Of a DNA stretch of 33,424 bases, positions 1,727 to 33,424 are shown in pieces. The stretch is from positions 1 to 33,424 of the forward strand of contig JAKADY010000035.1 in NCBI GenBank assembly GCA_021826065.1. The letters are read 5' to 3'. The DNA comes from Pseudomonadota bacterium (GTDB lineage: Bacteria > Pseudomonadota > Gammaproteobacteria > Burkholderiales > Thiobacillaceae). The translations under genes and the position numbers were made by a program. The notes under the pieces are model-generated. The model did not search any database. It worked only from the letters and a program-made list of their open reading frames with translations, and was not told where the DNA came from. Position 1 is the first letter of the stretch. Each line of letters starts with the position of its first letter.

Positions 1727-2338
1727 ATGGCGAAGAAGTCGACCACCCTGTCGGCCAAGGACCGCAAGGCCCTAGCGCACAAATACACGCTGCCGGACGA
1801 CCTGTTGGGCCCCGCCCCAGCCGCCCGTGGCCGTACACGGGGCAAGGCGCGGGCGCGAGGGGCCGAGCCCATCGGGATCGAGACGCGCAAGTTCTACCCC
1901 GACTTCCCCATCGGCCGCTTCGAGGGCCAACCGCACCTGGTCTGGGTGGCGCCCGACCTGTTCCTGCACGAACCCCAGACCGCCAAACCCTTCCGCTTCA
2001 TCCGTGCCAACGGCGAGGTGATCGCCCCGGGCCGCATGTTCACCGATGGCGGTTCGATCCCGCGCGCCCTGTGGTCCATCCCCAACCTCTCGCCCTGGAC
2101 CTACGGCCCGGCCTTCTTGGTCCACGACTGGCTGTTCGATCTGCACCACTGTGACCTGGACACGCGCAGCTTCGAGGCGGTGCGCGACATCATGCTGGAA
2201 GGGGTGCGCACCCTCATGGAGACCGGGGTCTGCCAGATGAACCGCCTGACCTTCGACCTGATCTACGCCGGCAGCGACTCCCTCATCGCCCGTGCGATCT
2301 GGGACCGGCCTGGTTGCACCCTGCCGGCGCAGGGCTGA
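1727..2338 (+). CDS. DUF1353 family protein
   Basis: 203-residue protein of unknown function. Residues about 105-145 carry the DUF1353 pattern: FTDGGSIPR, then W-x-IPN, then a Tyr/Pro-rich stretch and FLVHDWLFD. The conserved Asp, Ser and His-Asp suggest a small enzymatic or metal-binding fold, but no activity is established that I know of. The first 45 residues are basic and low in complexity, with no signal peptide or membrane segment, so the protein is probably cytoplasmic. GGGAG (1716-1720) sits 6 bases before the ATG and supports this start. DUF1353 proteins occur in both phages and chromosomes, but no phage gene lies nearby. Confidence 0.75.
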   Translation: MAKKSTTLSAKDRKALAHKYTLPDDLLGPAPAARGRTRGKARARGAEPIGIETRKFYPDFPIGRFEGQPHLVWVAPDLFLHEPQTAKPFRFIRANGEVIAPGRMFTDGGSIPRALWSIPNLSPWTYGPAFLVHDWLFDLHHCDLDTRSFEAVRDIMLEGVRTLMETGVCQMNRLTFDLIYAGSDSLIARAIWDRPGCTLPAQG

Positions 2339-2407
2339 CACGATCGCGCCATGCGCCGGCGGGCCGACGTCGCGCGCCTGACACCGCAGGGTAAGACACC
2401 ATCCCGC

Positions 2408-3769
2408 ATGCGCCGCCTGTTGCCGGCGCTCTTGGCCCTGCTGTTGGTCGCCGTGGCTGCGGCGGCCTGGCTGCTGGGGGACCTCGCCGGCTTGGGCAGT
2501 GCCTTCACCGCCAAATATCTGTGCTCGCAGGTCTTCGTCGCCGACCGTGCGGCCGAGGCGGTGGCGCGGGAGGATCTGCCCGCGTTCCGCTCCGCCATCC
2601 TCGATCGCGTGCGCTGGCGCCTGGACAGGGCCGGACAGCGCGTGCAGGCCGACCTCCTGGGCCTGGGCCGGCGGCTGGCCCGGCATCGCCCCGGACTGGG
2701 CTGCAGCCTGGCCCTGGCGGGTCCGCCCGCCGACGTGCCACCACCCCAGCCGCCGGCACCCTCTGCGCCTTTCACCGAGGCCGCGGCGCCACCCGCGCTC
2801 GCACGGGTCGTGGAGGCCGCCTTCGCCGAGCCCGACCCGCGGCGTCCCCGCCGCACCCGGGCCGTGCTGATCCTGCAGCACGGCCGGCTGCTCGCCGAGC
2901 GTTACGCCCCCGGCTTCGATGCCACGACGCGCTTTCCTGGCTGGTCCATGAGCAAGAGCGTGCTCAACGCCCTGCTCGGCATCCTCGTGGCCGAGGGCCG
3001 GCTCGCCTTGGACGACCCGATACCCGTACCCGAGTGGTCGGCCGCGGGTGACCCGCGCCGCGCCATCACGTTGCGTCATCTTCTACAGATGTCCAGCGGG
3101 CTCGCCTTCGACGAGGACTACGACAACCCGCGCTCGGACGTCATCCGCATGCTTTACGGCCGCCGCGACAGCGCCGCCTATGCCGCGGCCAAGCCTCTCG
3201 TGTCCACGCCCGGCAGCCGCTTCAGCTACTCCACCGGCACCTCCGCCATCCTGTCGCGACTGGTCGCCGACACCGCCCCTGAACCATGGCCACATTTCGC
3301 CCAGCGGGCGTTGTTCGCCCCGCTGGGCATGGCGAGCGCCGTCATCGAACCGGACAGCGCCGGCACACCGGGGCTCGCATCGTCCGTCTGGGCGCGCGCC
3401 CGCGACTGGGGTCGTTTCGGCCAGCTCTACCTGCAAGACGGGGTCTGGCAGGGTCGGCGCCTGTTGCCGGAGGGTTGGGTCGCCTTCAGCCGCACACCCG
3501 CACCGGCCGATCCCCTGCGCGAATACGGCGCCCACTTCTGGATTCGGGTGCCGCACCCGGACCGCCTGGACGCCGGCCGCCCGCACCTGGTGCCCGCCGA
3601 CGCCTTGCACGCCGCGGGGCATGGGGCGCAGTATGTGAGCATCCTCCCCTCGCAAGGGCTGGTGGTCGTGCGGCTGGGGCTGACCCTCGACCCCGGCAGC
3701 TGGGACCACGAGGCCTTCCTGCACGACGTGGTCGCCACCCTGGCCACTGATGAGGCGCGGCAGCCATGA
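2408..3769 (+). CDS. membrane-anchored serine hydrolase, beta-lactamase / NylB-like family
   Basis: About 453 residues from this start. A hydrophobic segment at residues 4-25 should anchor or export it, followed by a Pro/Ala-rich linker and a class C beta-lactamase-like domain from about residue 130. The catalytic SxxK is SMSK (S180, K183), the second motif is YST (Y274), and HAAGHGAQ near residue 400 is a plausible third motif, HxG instead of KTG. This pattern is commoner in 6-aminohexanoate-dimer hydrolases and esterases than in true beta-lactamases. The substrate is unknown and antibiotic resistance should not be assumed. An ATG at 2351 is in frame, but the one at 2408 opens directly on the signal-like segment and has AGGGTAAGA upstream. 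Confidence 0.75.
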   Translation: MRRLLPALLALLLVAVAAAAWLLGDLAGLGSAFTAKYLCSQVFVADRAAEAVAREDLPAFRSAILDRVRWRLDRAGQRVQADLLGLGRRLARHRPGLGCSLALAGPPADVPPPQPPAPSAPFTEAAAPPALARVVEAAFAEPDPRRPRRTRAVLILQHGRLLAERYAPGFDATTRFPGWSMSKSVLNALLGILVAEGRLALDDPIPVPEWSAAGDPRRAITLRHLLQMSSGLAFDEDYDNPRSDVIRMLYGRRDSAAYAAAKPLVSTPGSRFSYSTGTSAILSRLVADTAPEPWPHFAQRALFAPLGMASAVIEPDSAGTPGLASSVWARARDWGRFGQLYLQDGVWQGRRLLPEGWVAFSRTPAPADPLREYGAHFWIRVPHPDRLDAGRPHLVPADALHAAGHGAQYVSILPSQGLVVVRLGLTLDPGSWDHEAFLHDVVATLATDEARQP

Positions 3770-3815
3770 CCGGCCGACTTTCCCATAGACCGTTTCCCCT
3801 CTAGACTCTGACGCC

Positions 3816-4844
3816 ATGCATGCGCTAGACGCCTGGCGCGAGGAGATGTGCTCGGCCTATCTCTATCGCGTCGTCTCCGACGAGGAATCCGGCACGCCGC
3901 GCCAGCTGCTGTTTCTGGAGCTGGCCAGGGCGGCCGAGGAACAGGCCGGCATCTGGGCCGAGCAGATCCGCCGGGCAGGGGCGGCGCCGCCCGCCGGCTA
4001 CCGGCCGGACCTGCGCACACGGTTGGTAGCCCGGTTGGTGCGCGCCCTCGGCGTGGCACCGATGCGGCGGGTGCTCGCGGCGATGAAGGTACGCGGCATG
4101 AGCCTGTACCACGCCCCGGCACCGCACGGCATGCCGGTGTCCGCCGACTTCAAGGAGCGGCGACACCGCACCGCCGACGGCGGCAACCTGCGCGCCGCGG
4201 TGTTCGGCGTCAACGACGGTCTGGTCTCCAACGCCAGCCTGATCCTGGGCGTGGCCGGTGCCGGCACCGAGCCCACGCTCATCGTCCTGTCGGGCGCCGC
4301 GGGGCTGCTCGCCGGCGCGCTGTCCATGGCGGCGGGCGAATATGTCTCGGTACGGGCGCAGAAGGAATTCTTCGAGTACCAGATCGGCCTGGAGCGCGAG
4401 GAGCTCAAGCAATATCCCAAGGAAGAGGCGGCCGAGCTCGCCCTGATCTACACCGCCAAGGGAGTGCCGCGCGAGGAGGCGCAACGCATGGCCGAGCGCC
4501 TGATCAGCGACCCGGACAAGGCGCTCGACACCCTGGCGCGCGAGGAGCTGGGTCTCAACCCCGAGGAGCTGGGCTCGCCCCTGGGGGCCGCCATCTCGTC
4601 TTTCCTCGCCTTCGCCGTAGGCGCCGCCATCCCGCTCGCCCCCTACCTCTTGTTGAGCGGCGAGATCGCCCTCACCGGCACCCTCCTGGTCAGTGCCGTG
4701 AGCCTGTTCGGCGTGGGCAGCGCGCTGAGCCTGTTCACCGGCAAGCCGGCCTGGCGGGGGGGGCTACGCATGCTGGCCATCGGCGGCGGGGCGGGGCTCA
4801 CCACCTGGCTCATCGGCCGGGCGCTGGGTGTGGCCCTGGGTTAG
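3816..4844 (+). CDS. MbfA-like protein: ferritin-like domain fused to VIT1/CCC1 iron transporter
   Basis: 342 residues. The N-terminal ~110 residues form a short helical, rubrerythrin/ferritin-like region rich in Glu. From about residue 130 comes the VIT1/CCC1 (DUF125) membrane domain, opened by FGVNDGLVSNASLILG and followed by a small-residue helix with LSMAAGEYVSV. Three more hydrophobic segments lie at the C-terminus. Relatives called MbfA export iron or manganese from the cytoplasm of alphaproteobacteria. The usual EExxH of the ferritin-like part reads AEEQAGIW here, so the canonical His is absent and iron oxidation is uncertain. No ribosome binding site precedes the ATG, and a TAGACT hexamer at 3802-3807 would give an almost leaderless message. 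The stop codon lies inside a candidate metF -10. Confidence 0.82.
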   Translation: MHALDAWREEMCSAYLYRVVSDEESGTPRQLLFLELARAAEEQAGIWAEQIRRAGAAPPAGYRPDLRTRLVARLVRALGVAPMRRVLAAMKVRGMSLYHAPAPHGMPVSADFKERRHRTADGGNLRAAVFGVNDGLVSNASLILGVAGAGTEPTLIVLSGAAGLLAGALSMAAGEYVSVRAQKEFFEYQIGLEREELKQYPKEEAAELALIYTAKGVPREEAQRMAERLISDPDKALDTLAREELGLNPEELGSPLGAAISSFLAFAVGAAIPLAPYLLLSGEIALTGTLLVSAVSLFGVGSALSLFTGKPAWRGGLRMLAIGGGAGLTTWLIGRALGVALG

Positions 4845-4847
4845 AAT
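4842..4847 (+). promoter_or_regulatory. candidate -10 element for metF
   Basis: TAGAAT overlaps the stop codon of the preceding gene and is followed by GC-rich sequence. Hexamers of the TANAAT type stand in similar positions before dusB, purD, hemF and hemA. No good -35 is seen. Confidence 0.3.
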
Positions 4848-4862
4848 CGCGCCTGCCGCCCC

Positions 4863-4929
4863 ACGCCTCACGCCTCACGCCTCACGCCTCACGCCTCACG
4901 CCTCACGCCTCACGCCTCACGCCTCACGC
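4863..4929 (+). repeat. 7-bp tandem repeat in the metF leader
   Basis: Nine complete copies of ACGCCTC (equivalently CCTCACG) plus a 4-base remainder run up to three bases before the metF ATG. They occupy the place where a ribosome binding site should be. Perfect short tandem repeats of this kind can change copy number by slippage. Read in frame, the array would encode a repeating LTPHASR peptide, but that extension is not part of MetF. Confidence 0.95.
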
Positions 4930-4932
4930 AAA

Positions 4933-5778
4933 ATGGACCGCGTCTTCAGCATCGAATTCTTCCCGCCCAAGACCCCGGAAGGGGTGGAGAAGCTGCGCGC
5001 CACCCGCCGCCAGCTCGCGCAACTCAAGCCCAAGTTCTTCTCCGTCACCTTCGGCGCCGGCGGCTCCACCCGCGACCGCACCCTGGAGACCGTGCTGGAG
5101 ATCCAGGCCGAGGGGCTGGAGGCCGCGCCGCACCTGTCCTGCATCGGCTCCACCCGCGAGAGTATCCGTCAGATCCTTGAGACCTATCGCGCGCATGGCA
5201 TCCGCCACATCGTTGCGCTACGCGGCGACCTGCCCTCCGGCATGGCCGAGCCCGGCGAATTCCGCTATGCCAGCGACCTGGTCAGCTTCATCCGTCAGGA
5301 GACAGGGGACTGGTTCGAGATCGAGGTGGCGGCCTACCCGGAGATGCACCCGCAGGCCCGCAACTATCGCGAGGACCTCGCCAATTTCAAGCGCAAGGTC
5401 GAGGCCGGCGCAAATGCCGCCATCACCCAGTACTTCTACAACGCCGACGCCTATTTCAATTTCGTCGACGACTGCCGGGCCCTGGGCGTGGACATCCCCA
5501 TCGTGCCGGGCATCATGCCCATCTCCAACTATGCCCAGCTGGCCCGTTTCTCGGCCGCCTGCGGTGCGGAGATGCCTCGCTGGCTGGCGAAGAAGCTGGA
5601 GGCCTATCACGACGACAGCGCCGCCATCCGCGCCTTCGGGCTCGACGTCGTCACGGCGATGTGCGAGCGCCTGCTCGCCGGCGGCGCCCCGGGTCTACAT
5701 TTCTACACCCTCAACCAGGCGGGCCTGACGGTTGCCCTGTGGCAGAGGCTGGGGCTCAGCCGCACGAATCGGCCATAA
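4933..5778 (+). CDS. metF: 5,10-methylenetetrahydrofolate reductase
   Basis: Reduces 5,10-methylene-THF to 5-methyl-THF, the methyl donor for methionine synthesis; FAD-dependent and cytoplasmic. 281 residues, against about 296 in E. coli, forming one TIM-barrel. It opens MDRVFSIEFFPPKTPEG, with the catalytic Glu at residue 8. SVTFGAGGSTRD and HLSCIGSTRESI follow, as usual for the family. The ATG at 4933 is chosen because homology begins there; an in-frame ATG at 4828 would only add peptide encoded by the tandem repeat. There is no Shine-Dalgarno sequence. Downstream is a hairpin that lacks a U-tract in this direction. Confidence 0.95.
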   Translation: MDRVFSIEFFPPKTPEGVEKLRATRRQLAQLKPKFFSVTFGAGGSTRDRTLETVLEIQAEGLEAAPHLSCIGSTRESIRQILETYRAHGIRHIVALRGDLPSGMAEPGEFRYASDLVSFIRQETGDWFEIEVAAYPEMHPQARNYREDLANFKRKVEAGANAAITQYFYNADAYFNFVDDCRALGVDIPIVPGIMPISNYAQLARFSAACGAEMPRWLAKKLEAYHDDSAAIRAFGLDVVTAMCERLLAGGAPGLHFYTLNQAGLTVALWQRLGLSRTNRP

Positions 5779-11853: not shown

Positions 11854-12099
11854 TTGAACCTAAAAACCGCAGTTGACCGCTCTTATGGCTTCGTAACAGC
11901 TCGCTGATGCAAGAGATTTTGCCTCCGGTCCTCCTCTCCCAGAGGGTGAACACGCTCCGCGCCCGCCTTCGGTCTTGTACGCCCGTCTGGCCGCGTTGCT
12001 CCTCCTTGCAGGCAGCCCACCCTGCGGCGTCGTCGCGCCTTGCCAGCCGGTCGTACAAACCCGCTTTCGGGCACGTTCAACTGCGGTTTTTAGGTTGAA
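11854..12099. mobile_element. 246-bp non-autonomous element with terminal inverted repeats (MITE-like)
   Basis: The left end (11854-11876) reads TTGAACCTAAAAACCGCAG then TTGA; the right end is its inverse, with 22 of 24 positions matching. Inside, cttgtacg (near 11975) and cgtacaa (near 12050) form a second inverted pair, so the element can fold back on itself. It has no convincing ORF. A second copy begins at 33293, with 9 substitutions and one indel over the visible 132 bases. It fills the selD-lnt gap, ending 2 bases before the lnt stop codon. No target-site duplication is obvious. Confidence 0.8.
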
Positions 12100-31005: not shown

Positions 31006-31974
31006 GTGCGGGGGCATCCTTTGGATAAAACGAGAGCGATGCGAGCCGCGCCTGGTTGCGCTGCCCCGTCCCCCTCGAGGGGGACAGGCTGGGGTGGGGG
31101 TGAAACGCCGACGACCCTAGCCGACTGGCTGAGCGCGGCCACCACGGGGTTGCAGGCGGCCCTGGACCTCACCCGGCGCGAGGCCCGCCTGGAGGCCCAG
31201 CTCCTCACCGGGCATGGCCTGGGGGTGGACCGCCCCTGGCTCATCGCCCATGACGATCACCGCTTAAGACCGCGTCAACAAGAAGACCTGCTGCTCTTGC
31301 TTGCGCGCCGCTTAGGCGGCGAGCCCATGGCCTACATCCTCGGCCGGCGCGCCTTCTACGACCTGGAGCTCGCGGTCACCCCCGCCGTGCTGATCCCGCG
31401 GCCGGAGACCGAGCTGCTGGTCGAGGCGGCCCTCGAGCGCCTCCAGCCCGAGGCCCCCTGCCGCCTCCTCGACCTGGGCACCGGCAGCGGCGCCATCGCC
31501 CTGGCCCTCGCCCGCCACCGAACCGAGGCGCTGATCACCGCGGTGGACCGCTCTGCCGAGGCGCTGGCCGTGGCCCGGGCCAATGCCCGGCGGCTGGGTC
31601 TGGGCCACGTCCGTTTTGTCCTGAGCGACTGGTATGCGGCGCTCGCGGGTGAGGTCTTCGACCTGATCGTCGCCAATCCACCCTATGTCGCCGAGGACGA
31701 CCCCCACCTGCAGCGGGGCGACGTGCGCTTCGAGCCGGCACAGGCGCTGCGCGCCGGCCCCGACGGCCTGGCCGCCATCCGCGTGATCGTCGCCGGCGCC
31801 CCTGCTCATCTGCGGCCCGGCGGCTGGCTGCTGCTGGAACACGGCCACGACCAGGCCGCGGCCAGCCAGACCCTGCTCGCCGCGGCGGGCTTCGAGGCCG
31901 TCTTCACCCTGAGCGACCTCGCCGGGCTGCCGCGCGTGAGCGGCGGCCGCCTTCCTGGGCACGCGGCCGCATGA
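31006..31974 (+). CDS. prmC: release factor N5-glutamine methyltransferase
   Basis: Methylates the Gln of the GGQ motif in release factors with S-adenosylmethionine. 322 residues, against about 277 in E. coli. The SAM-binding LDLGTGSGAIAL and the catalytic NPPY (ANPPYVAED) are clear; the N-terminal helical domain starts near TLADWLSAA. The first ~36 residues have no counterpart in the family and are partly encoded by a palindromic repeat (31068-31085). No usable start codon lies between that repeat and the conserved part, so the extension seems to be translated. GTG at 31006 has GAGG upstream and is coupled to prfA; ATG at 31039 is an alternative. Confidence 0.9.
   Translation: MRGHPLDKTRAMRAAPGCAAPSPSRGTGWGGGETPTTLADWLSAATTGLQAALDLTRREARLEAQLLTGHGLGVDRPWLIAHDDHRLRPRQQEDLLLLLARRLGGEPMAYILGRRAFYDLELAVTPAVLIPRPETELLVEAALERLQPEAPCRLLDLGTGSGAIALALARHRTEALITAVDRSAEALAVARANARRLGLGHVRFVLSDWYAALAGEVFDLIVANPPYVAEDDPHLQRGDVRFEPAQALRAGPDGLAAIRVIVAGAPAHLRPGGWLLLEHGHDQAAASQTLLAAAGFEAVFTLSDLAGLPRVSGGRLPGHAAA
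31068..31085. repeat. 18-bp perfect palindrome inside the prmC 5' region
   Basis: GTCCCCCTCGAGGGGGAC is its own reverse complement and is followed by a G-rich stretch (31087-31101). The arrangement resembles short REP-like intergenic repeats, but here it lies inside the reading frame. Only one copy is seen in the window. Confidence 0.6.
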
Positions 31975-33296
31975 CCGCGGACCCCCACTATCGCCTGCCG
32001 CCGGGCGTGGCGTTCCCGCGCTGGCGCGAGGGCCCGGCCGCCGAGGAATGGGTGGTGTACCACGAGGGCACCGGCCAGACCTTGCGCCTGAGCGCCGCCG
32101 CCTGCGTCCTGCTCGACGCCCTCGCCCGGGGGCCGCTCGACCGCGGACGACTCTCCGAGGCCCTTGCCAGCGCCTTCGCTGATCCACCCGGCCCGGCCGA
32201 GCTCGAAAGCGCCCTCGACGGCCTGTTGGAGGGACTGGTCAGGCATGAATTGATCGAGACGCTCGAGGCGCCGGCAGTCCCGGCCGTGAATCACGACCCC
32301 CCCCAGCCCCCGGGTGGTGAAGTGCCCAGGGGCGCGGCAGCACCTACACTCCAGGCCCGGACCAGGCCCCGCGACCCTCCGACCACAGGCACGCAACGCC
32401 TGGGCGAGCTCAGCCAGGCCGAGGTGAGCGCGCGGCTGCGCACGGGGCTCGCGCTCGTCACCGGCCCCTTCGTCTTCCGTATCGTGAGCCACCTGCCGCT
32501 CGTTGCCGCCAACCTGCACCGGCTCTACGCCGACTTTCCGCTCGCCGAGGGCACCTTCGCCGACTTCCACGTGCGCGTCGACCCCGTCGCCGGGTCGCGC
32601 CGCTGGTTCAAGCCGCAGGCCCAGTTCTGGCTGGACGGCCTCACCCCCTTCAAGCCGCTGCCGCGCGACCAGGCCTATGCCATGCTGGAGTGGGGCATGA
32701 ACTGGTGCATCGCCGGCCATGCCCACCACTACCTCATGCTGCACGCCGCGGTGCTGGAGCGCGCCGGGCGGGCGCTGATCCTGCCCGGTGACCCCGGCGC
32801 GGGCAAGAGCACGCTGACCGCCGCCCTCATGCTCGACGGCTGGCGCCTGCTGTCGGACGAGATCACCCTCATCGACCGGCGCGACGGGAGGCTCTATGGC
32901 CTGGCGCGGCCGGTGAGCCTCAAGAACGCCTCCATCGAGGTGATCCGCGCCCATGCCCCGGCGGCCGTCTTCGGCGATGTGGCGCGCGACACCCACAAGG
33001 GCACGGTCTCACACCTGAAACCCACGCCCGACAGCGTCGCCCGCACCGGCGAGCCGGCGCAGCCGGCCTGGATCGTCTTCCCACGCTGGAAACGGGACAC
33101 CCCCGCCCGGCTCACGCCGCACCCCAAGGCCGCCGCCTTCCTGCACCTGGCGAGCCACGCCTTCAACTACAGCCTCCTGGGCGCGACCGCCTTCGATCTC
33201 ACCGCCCGGCTGATGGACGCCTGCACCTGCTGGGACTTCGAATACGGCCGTCTGCCCGAGGCCCTGGCCGTCTTCCGCGAACTGGCTGAGGCTTGA
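31971..33296 (+). CDS. PqqD-like peptide chaperone fused to HprK-related kinase
   Basis: 441 residues in three parts. Residues 1-95 match small PqqD-like proteins of the HPr-rel-A type (FPRWREGPAAEEWVVYHEGTG, then a winged-helix pattern). Residues 100-150 are a Pro/Arg-rich linker that reads like translated spacer DNA and contains an 8-C run (32297-32304). Residues 152-441 match HprK-related kinase A, with GPFVFRIVSHLP, a P-loop GDPGAGKST (273-281; K279) and RPVSLKN. These two are usually separate neighbouring genes, as I recall; substrates are not established. A GTG at 32424 would start a 290-residue kinase alone. It overlaps prmC by ATGA. The stop codon falls inside the second copy of the 246-bp element. 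Confidence 0.75.
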   Translation: MTADPHYRLPPGVAFPRWREGPAAEEWVVYHEGTGQTLRLSAAACVLLDALARGPLDRGRLSEALASAFADPPGPAELESALDGLLEGLVRHELIETLEAPAVPAVNHDPPQPPGGEVPRGAAAPTLQARTRPRDPPTTGTQRLGELSQAEVSARLRTGLALVTGPFVFRIVSHLPLVAANLHRLYADFPLAEGTFADFHVRVDPVAGSRRWFKPQAQFWLDGLTPFKPLPRDQAYAMLEWGMNWCIAGHAHHYLMLHAAVLERAGRALILPGDPGAGKSTLTAALMLDGWRLLSDEITLIDRRDGRLYGLARPVSLKNASIEVIRAHAPAAVFGDVARDTHKGTVSHLKPTPDSVARTGEPAQPAWIVFPRWKRDTPARLTPHPKAAAFLHLASHAFNYSLLGATAFDLTARLMDACTCWDFEYGRLPEALAVFRELAEA

Positions 33297-33424
33297 ACCT
33301 AAAAACCGCAGTTGACCGCTCTCACGGTTTCGTAACAGATTGCTGATGCAAGAGATTTTTGCCTCCGGTCATCCTGTCCTGGAGGGTGAACACGCTCCGC
33401 GCCCGCCTTCGGTCTTGTACGCCC
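33293..33424. mobile_element. second copy of the 246-bp element (cut by window edge)
   Basis: 132 bases match 11854-11984 with 9 substitutions and one indel, starting at the same terminal inverted repeat. The element's first bases supply the TGA stop of the kinase gene. The rest is outside the window. This shows the 11854 element is a dispersed family. Confidence 0.85.

Follow-up and report, generated by a model that had tools for sequence, protein, structure and literature searches.

The window analyzed here is the whole of contig C17 (JAKADY010000035.1; 33,424 nucleotides, forward strand) from the genome of a member of the Thiobacillaceae (assembly GCA_021826065.1; 2.74 Mb in 74 contigs, G000 or the own genome below). 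Near its right-hand end lies a gene of the HPr-rel-A cassette in which a PqqD-like protein and an HprK-related kinase A are encoded in one uninterrupted frame (Table 1). The components of this cassette are referred to as P (the PqqD-like protein, of the RiPP (ribosomally synthesized and post-translationally modified peptide) recognition element, or RRE, type), K (the HprK-related kinase A), N (the NTP_transf_5 protein, PF14907, which we take to be the product of the third gene of the HPr-rel-A system) and S, a small protein with a twin-arginine translocation (Tat) type signal which was found as a regular fourth member and is proposed below as the candidate substrate of the kinase.

An earlier note on this DNA had read the frame as a joint of the PqqD-like and HprK-related families, and when each half was searched separately both passed the cut-offs of their families. 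The N-terminal half alone scored 37.9 bits against TIGR04353 (HPr-rel-A system PqqD family peptide chaperone) and the whole protein 35.1 bits, a narrow pass at a cut-off of 35, while Pfam PqqD (PF05402; cut-off 23.4) gave 26.3 bits for the half and 23.0 bits for the whole protein. The kinase half scored 392.9 bits against TIGR04352, a wide margin over the cut-off of 200. In a model of the fusion, made from an alignment (A6) of kinase rows only and in which the PqqD half rests on one sequence, three short strands (residues 18-39) and three helices (40-91) are predicted in PqqD-like order with low to middling confidence. The predicted local distance difference test (pLDDT) score is below 50 at residues 97-133 of the linker and mostly above 90 in the kinase from about residue 139, somewhat earlier than the residue 152 from which the kinase had been drawn. 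Foldseek comparison of the kinase model returned PEP (phosphoenolpyruvate) carboxykinases (PEPCK) as best matches and HprK next, which points to the PEPCK/HprK fold. Two joint alignments of the fused protein with PqqD and kinase rows were left unused, A5 because it visibly misplaces PqqD rows into the kinase half and A4 because its low identities suggest the same fault.

The S gene was first seen after the N gene in eight relatives, where open reading frames (ORFs) of some 200-240 codons resemble one another in an N-terminal block, and a ninth was found in G001, a genome of the same genus. When aligned, the nine had in common an RR pair and a hydrophobic stretch, together with the block C-x-x-S-G-x-x-S-G-x-x-S. 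This nine-sequence alignment was searched, without regard to position, against 399 genomes of the order; S was found in 35, all of them among the 68 genomes with a TIGR04352 kinase over cut-off. S lay on the same contig as the kinase and within 1.4 kb of it in 34 of these; the 35th is the own genome, where the two stand on either side of a contig break. The same model was applied to named kinase loci, of which at least 300 were confirmed and the best 80 kept, so that this set leans towards kinases like that of the window; judged by their titles the loci include some from beta-, gamma- and alphaproteobacteria and from Malonomonas. S was detected at 78 of the 80 kept loci and, after one round, at all 80, the weakest accepted match having an E value of 2.8e-16 and the next candidate one of 0.47; a control with sequences reversed produced nothing at E 1e-3. 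At every kept locus S, P, K and N (the last detected with a home-made model) were all present on the same strand, with at most 1326 bases between S and K.

The place of S within the cassette is not constant. In the loci nearest the window (L093-L097) it lies downstream of N, elsewhere upstream of P or K, and its linkage has therefore survived relocation. Two tandem S genes are present at three of the 80 loci (L096, L097 and L165), each with a single P and a single K gene. At L094 (8846-11063) a second pair of kinase A and NTP transferase genes directly follows the S gene of the first cassette. A wider search of 398 genomes of the phylum with a 70-row S model matched 41, of which 37 have the kinase, compared with 61 kinase genomes in the whole sample; S stood beside the kinase in 32 of the 37, counting the own genome across its contig break and G557, where S is on the opposite strand.

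With respect to the protein itself, S is about 180-280 amino acids long. Alignment A3 left out 13 of 83 S matches (11 without a usable ATG, two fragments); a larger set of 92 sequences gave, after two shorter than 150 amino acids were dropped, 90 sequences of which 88 are distinct. Among these 88 the RR pair is present in 87 (KR in the other), the first Cys in 87, the first Ser in all, the second Ser in 87 and the second Cys in 85; in the L093 protein the two Ser are S51 and S55. The C-x-x-S-x-x-x-S motif follows the signal, whose Tat-type features were present in 81 of 81 sequences, both as a 12-residue stretch of mean hydropathy 1.32 or more and as a small-x-small pattern before the Cys. If cleavage follows the small-x-small rule, the Cys would fall at mature positions 2-4 in 58 of the 81, and the two Ser at about 5-7 and 9-11. 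Median pairwise identity was 39% from RR to the second Cys and 25% in the body, compared with 51% for the kinase, 47% for the NTP transferase and 25% for the PqqD-like protein. An AlphaFold model of S (mean pLDDT 75.8) has blocks of 84-93 at residues 111-215, consistent with a folded C-terminal domain. No fold match was obtained in PDB or BFVD at E 0.001 and no PDB match for the sequence profile at E 1, and a search of 70 members at 0.01 gave one weak NCBIfam match (E 0.0013), one weak Pfam match (DUF6764, E 0.0056) and no others. The own genome has TatC.

Other genes near the cassette are far less regular. When ORFs of at least 120 amino acids were clustered, the cassette and frames mostly overlapping it apart, no other family occurred at more than 22 of the 80 loci; one family of overlapping frames also chained in 39 of 114 ORFs lying clear of the cassette. 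Families at 13-16 of the 80 loci (L155, L153, L119 and others) place the cassette beside what we take to be exopolysaccharide or PEP-CTERM genes.

Table 1. Features at the right-hand end of the window (positions on the 33,424-nucleotide stretch)
Feature	Position	Strand	Evidence or remark
prmC (release factor glutamine methyltransferase), upstream neighbour	31006-31974	+	TIGR03534 291.3 bits, cut-off 199.1
PqqD-HprK_rel_A fusion gene	31971-33296	+	441 amino acids, ATG start, no internal stop
PqqD-like (RRE-type) domain	32043-32258	+	residues 25-96, TIGR04353
Linker	32259-32396	+	46 codons, residues 97-142, Pro/Ala/Arg-rich, mostly disordered
Possible internal GTG start for free kinase	32322-32324	+	Shine-Dalgarno pairing -6.5 kcal/mol
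HprK-related kinase A domain	32451-33284	+	residues 161-438, TIGR04352
H258, catalytic-type His	32742-32744	+	His in 80/80 relatives
Walker A GDPGAGKST, residues 273-281	32787-32813	+	Lys K279 invariant, 80/80
D296-E297	32856-32861	+	both invariant, 80/80
TTGAA, half of target-site duplication, overlapping the kinase stop	33293-33297	+	sequence
Left part of 236-bp MITE-like element	33298-33424	+	41 matches in own genome, itself included

The start codon of the fused gene overlaps the stop of prmC (ATGA, 31971-31974). At the other end the window stops 128 bases past the kinase stop, inside a repeat resembling a miniature inverted-repeat transposable element (MITE). Complete copies of this element are 235-237 bp long with inverted ends CCTAAAAACCGCAGTTGA and 5-bp duplications; another copy lies in the window at 11859-12094, and further copies are on contigs C5, C22, C23, C28, C41 and others. 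When contig C45 (3580 bp) is reversed it starts with the rest of such an element and continues into an N gene (PF14907, 182.5 bits); its overlap with the end of C17 is 18 bases, and the element is flanked by TTGAA on each outer side. N directly follows the kinase gene in G003 and G002, two genomes of the same genus. From the repeat ends and the gene order, C17 and C45 apparently adjoin and the 236-bp element sits between the kinase and N genes, an insertion that would explain the contig break. The nucleotidyltransferase expected just past the right edge was thus found in the genome, with the repeat element coming before it.

The joint of P and K is real but restricted. In the genus sample of four genomes both domains are in one frame in G000, G003 and G001, while in G002 they are two genes which overlap in different frames, the kinase ATG sitting within the PqqD gene (the junction reads ...GAGCCATGCGC...). 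Fusion was seen only in G003 and G001 among 20 relative loci fetched, at none of the 80 kept loci (as read off ORF coordinates), once among 35 further loci and at none of 20 more. The single further case, L205 (G241; 1957-3888), belongs to another family of the order and has a Pro-rich linker, and L204, the other sampled member of its genus, apparently has separate P and K genes when judged by eye. In the genome of another proteobacterium (L258, G603, a bin with 8% contamination) kinase A and NTP_transf_5 form one 708-amino-acid frame (3062-5185). Other genomes with the fusion, for which the earlier note had asked, therefore exist within the genus and in a second family, while nearly all other loci examined keep separate genes. 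Because G002 and other relatives have the two genes apart, the fusion is a derived state; such relatives, which had been named as evidence against a fusion, document the ancestral arrangement and leave the fusion in the window standing. Both halves of the alternative posed earlier, a true fusion or two genes recently joined, thus hold, since the joint recurs in three sampled species and is nevertheless derived.

Within the genus the fusion may have arisen once or twice, since the trees disagree. The three fused species form one clade in the trees of PqqD (5 rows, 96/94), NTP transferase (11 rows, 97/95) and prfA (8 rows, 97/97). In the kinase tree (11 rows) they do not, the G002 kinase grouping with those of G000 and G003; nor are they one clade in the prmC tree (7 rows, no starred branch), and a joined prfA and prmC alignment pairs G001 (0.85) with the unfused G011, a neighbour of the same family.

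The fused species have 46, 46 and 40 linker codons at the junction, and the kinase ATG is absent in all three. Shuffling the linkers of these species leaves the frame open 62%, 45% and 71% of the time, and a stop-free linker alone is therefore not significant; the claim of fusion rests on its recurrence in three species, the missing kinase ATG in all three and a PqqD frame without an in-frame stop. Because that frame has no stop before the kinase stop, PqqD could be produced free of the kinase only through a frameshift. We regard the joint as certain in the DNA and very likely in the protein. Its value to the cell is unproven, because the linker shows no codon signature: between G000 and G003 (ungapped) it has 15, 24 and 27 differences at codon positions 1, 2 and 3 over 46 codons, which speaks against a selected fusion, compared with 9, 8 and 20 over the 96 codons of PqqD and 25, 23 and 67 over the 300 of the kinase. 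GC content at third codon positions in G000 is 0.74 in the linker versus 0.88 and 0.94 in its flanks.

A free kinase may possibly be made as well, from an internal GTG. When the ATG start was compared with GTG codons in and around the linker, the codon at 32322 had the strongest Shine-Dalgarno pairing, and each of the three fused species has in its linker a GTG that pairs at -6.2 kcal/mol or more strongly; such pairing was found for 4.9% of 82 in-frame GTG codons, a yardstick taken from six window genes only. The translation start at 32424 put forward earlier is unlikely, with weak pairing (-2.5) and the loss of an ordered LGEL segment of the kinase. Capture of a dispersed repeat as the linker was ruled out, the linker DNA being single-copy in the genome with a best other match of E 0.03. 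The fusion could be a neutral accident in which an insertion in the overlap of two genes left the frame open; most of the kinase would then come from initiation at 32322, and the PqqD extension would not be under selection for any role. The absence of codon-position bias, the lower third-position GC content, the readiness with which frames of this length stay open in such DNA and the strong GTG in all three species would fit this account, while a joint shared by three species, a PqqD which barring frameshift is made only as a fusion and a second such joint at L205 are difficult for it; we consider it a serious possibility that is on balance not the probable one.

Comparison with known systems places the locus within the HPr-rel-A system, whose family models P and K pass and whose PF14907 gene is present in the own genome and at all 80 kept loci; it differs in the fusion of P to K and in the regular presence of S. 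Like HprK, the window kinase has the PEPCK/HprK fold, a P-loop and a catalytic-type His and Asp. It differs from HprK in that the second Asp is replaced by Glu at all 80 kept loci, where the His, Lys and first Asp are kept; the HprK sequence match is confined to residues 256-367 (E 0.0015), and a full-length TIGR00679 match was not reached (22.9 bits, cut-off 240). We know of no HPr gene in the cassette. SynChlorMet cassettes contain an HprK-like ScmC, a PqqD-like ScmD and radical SAM genes and so resemble the present system in combining PqqD-like and HprK-like proteins in one peptide-related cassette, while the ScmC model gave only 22.1 bits on the window kinase against a cut-off of 125.

In two further systems relatives of P, K and N act on peptides. 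The LPP family of RiPPs in Bacillota is reported to have a discrete RRE, an HprK-like kinase, an NTP transferase and a co-encoded substrate, with a signal-peptidase-like enzyme removing the leader, and LppK to add phosphates to Ser3 of the LPP core (PMC13381572). The combination of RRE, HprK-like kinase and NTP transferase is the one found together at the 80 kept loci. The present system differs from that of LPP in being from Pseudomonadota, in having no peptidase or transporter family that stood out at the loci and in the nature of S, which is a protein with a Tat-type signal and without the [Y/W]xxPx[V/L] motif before its Cys. In pseudomycoidin the kinase PsmK targets the Ser at the C-terminus, and once phosphorylated this residue receives hexose from PsmN (PMC9266682). 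Paeninodin-like lasso tailoring (PadeK/ThcoK, PsmK, PsmN) shares with the present cassette an HprK-like kinase, acting there on a precursor Ser, and a nucleotidyltransferase homologue, and differs in the kinase residues, H-K-D-E here versus the reported H-K-D-D (PMC9266682). Lasso cyclase and B2 families did not stand out at the loci, where they were not searched for one by one.

We consider it slightly more probable than not that the cassette is a Tat-coupled relative of the paeninodin/LPP module of RRE, kinase and NTP transferase which modifies S before export. P would hold newly made S in the cytoplasm, and K, with its H-K-D-E residues and P-loop, would phosphorylate a Ser of the conserved C-x-x-S motif. 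N would next attach a nucleotidyl or sugar group to the phosphate, much as PsmN is reported to add hexose, on the assumption that the two are homologous, and modified S would leave by the Tat route and lose its signal. In the genus with the P-K fusion the flexible linker would make substrate more concentrated around the kinase. The fused frame, the place of the gene in the cassette, the linkage of S to K and the invariant residues are observed; the role of S as substrate, the residue phosphorylated, the order of steps and Tat export are all points which we infer. Tat transports folded proteins, and modification in the cytoplasm before export would fit for this reason. The earlier note had suggested that the kinase modifies a peptide bound by the chaperone; the idea of a bound substrate is retained here, with S judged likelier than an unnamed peptide.

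Recognition of S by P is the least supported step. The segment of S before RR is poorly conserved (median pairwise identity 13%), and the LPP and lasso leader motif [Y/W]xxPx[V/L] was found before the first conserved Cys in none of 81 sequences and anywhere in the protein in six. Because the segment is variable and the motif absent, binding of S as a leader is unsupported, and P may instead bind the Tat signal itself or the S body. Chaperones of Tat-exported redox enzymes bind the Tat signal. A strict RiPP pathway, in which the product is a small peptide, the freed N-terminal part of S, would share the enzyme set of LPP, and the predicted mature positions of the Cys and Ser of S recall the core Ser3 at which LppA is reported to be modified (PMC13381572). 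Against such a pathway, which we consider quite improbable, stand the conserved and confidently folded C-terminal domain kept in S and the absence of the LPP leader motif, and no peptidase or transporter family stood out among the clustered ORFs of the loci.

Several further observations weigh against modification of S by the cassette. In five phylum genomes S is on another contig than the kinase, in weaker matches (E 1.8e-7 or more), and four phylum genomes match the S model without having a kinase, the two stronger of these in the body domain only (G741:C23:21698-21967 and G691:C2:94495-94866). The S model fails at more distant kinase loci: no match was obtained in 24 of the 61 kinase genomes of the phylum sample, 19 of the 24 being examined, and a match at 0.001 is missing at 10 of 34 further kinase loci of the order sample; genome searches scored six to eight first-look candidates per genome, so that misses are possible. 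In the own genome the S gene (L062, on C45, reverse strand) is in two frames, interrupted by a C7 tract immediately ahead of the conserved C-x-x-S. The break may be a genuine lesion, may reflect a variable tract or may have come from the assembly; the cassette may be decaying in this genome, or its contig may be incorrect. The mechanism is moreover drawn from sequence comparison and analogy, phosphorylation included.

Part of the shortfall may reflect a second layout of S. Thirty loci, comprising the 10 without a match and 20 more, were checked for Tat-like ORFs upstream; 11 of the 20 match the S model weakly (E 2e-5 to 1e-2), and the genome of L265 has a weak S match on another contig. At 24 of the 30 a Tat-like ORF carries C[FWYGT]xS within about 18 residues of its C-terminus, a pattern which was chosen after examples had been seen and had no formal control. 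Of the exceptions, L256 has C-I-V-S, the Tat-like ORFs of L186 and L205 lack the motif (that of L205 having W-S-S near its end and no Cys), and L257, L260 and L265 have no Tat-like ORF. Judged by such sequences, there seems to be a second S layout (class B) with the C-x-x-S at the opposite end from that described above (class A), in which the invariant Ser lie near the probable mature N-terminus. Most of L247-L255, L183-L202 and L258-L266 have class B proteins ending in C[FWY]xS, for example GFTCFASLQMPRG or SCWTSLRP.

S might, alternatively, not be modified at all, with P, K and N making or regulating something else and S being a co-regulated secreted effector or sensor. Linkage alone shows no chemistry, S has a folded domain without a PDB match at E 0.001, and the body-only matches in two genomes without the kinase would suit such a role. 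However, the known substrates of the module made up of RRE, HprK-like kinase and NTP transferase are encoded next to it, the Ser, Cys and twin Arg are among the most conserved residues of S, and none of the other genes at the 80 kept loci comes close to S in frequency; we therefore consider an unmodified S unlikely, if by no means negligible.

We thus regard the fusion as a variant within an already known cassette. That S is regularly present is new relative to the open-licence literature searched, in which no papers on the HPr-rel-A system, HprK-related kinase A or NTP_transf_5 were found and broader queries led to lasso-peptide papers and unrelated work. To our knowledge no substrate of the HPr-rel-A cassette has been described. 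S provides a concrete candidate, with two residues, for the question of what the kinase phosphorylates. Modification of S before export being preferred, we would go further only tentatively, at somewhat less than even confidence, and suggest that the HPr-rel-A cassette is a widespread proteobacterial system for one dedicated Tat-exported protein, in which a PqqD-like adaptor would retain S in the cell until its invariant C-x-x-S serine carries a phospho-linked group made by an HprK-type kinase and a nucleotidyltransferase-like enzyme. RiPP-type chemistry would thereby have passed from peptides to a folded protein and become coupled to its export by Tat. If true, RRE-guided modification would reach from small peptides to exported proteins, and the natural P-K and K-N fusions hint at enzymes working side by side.

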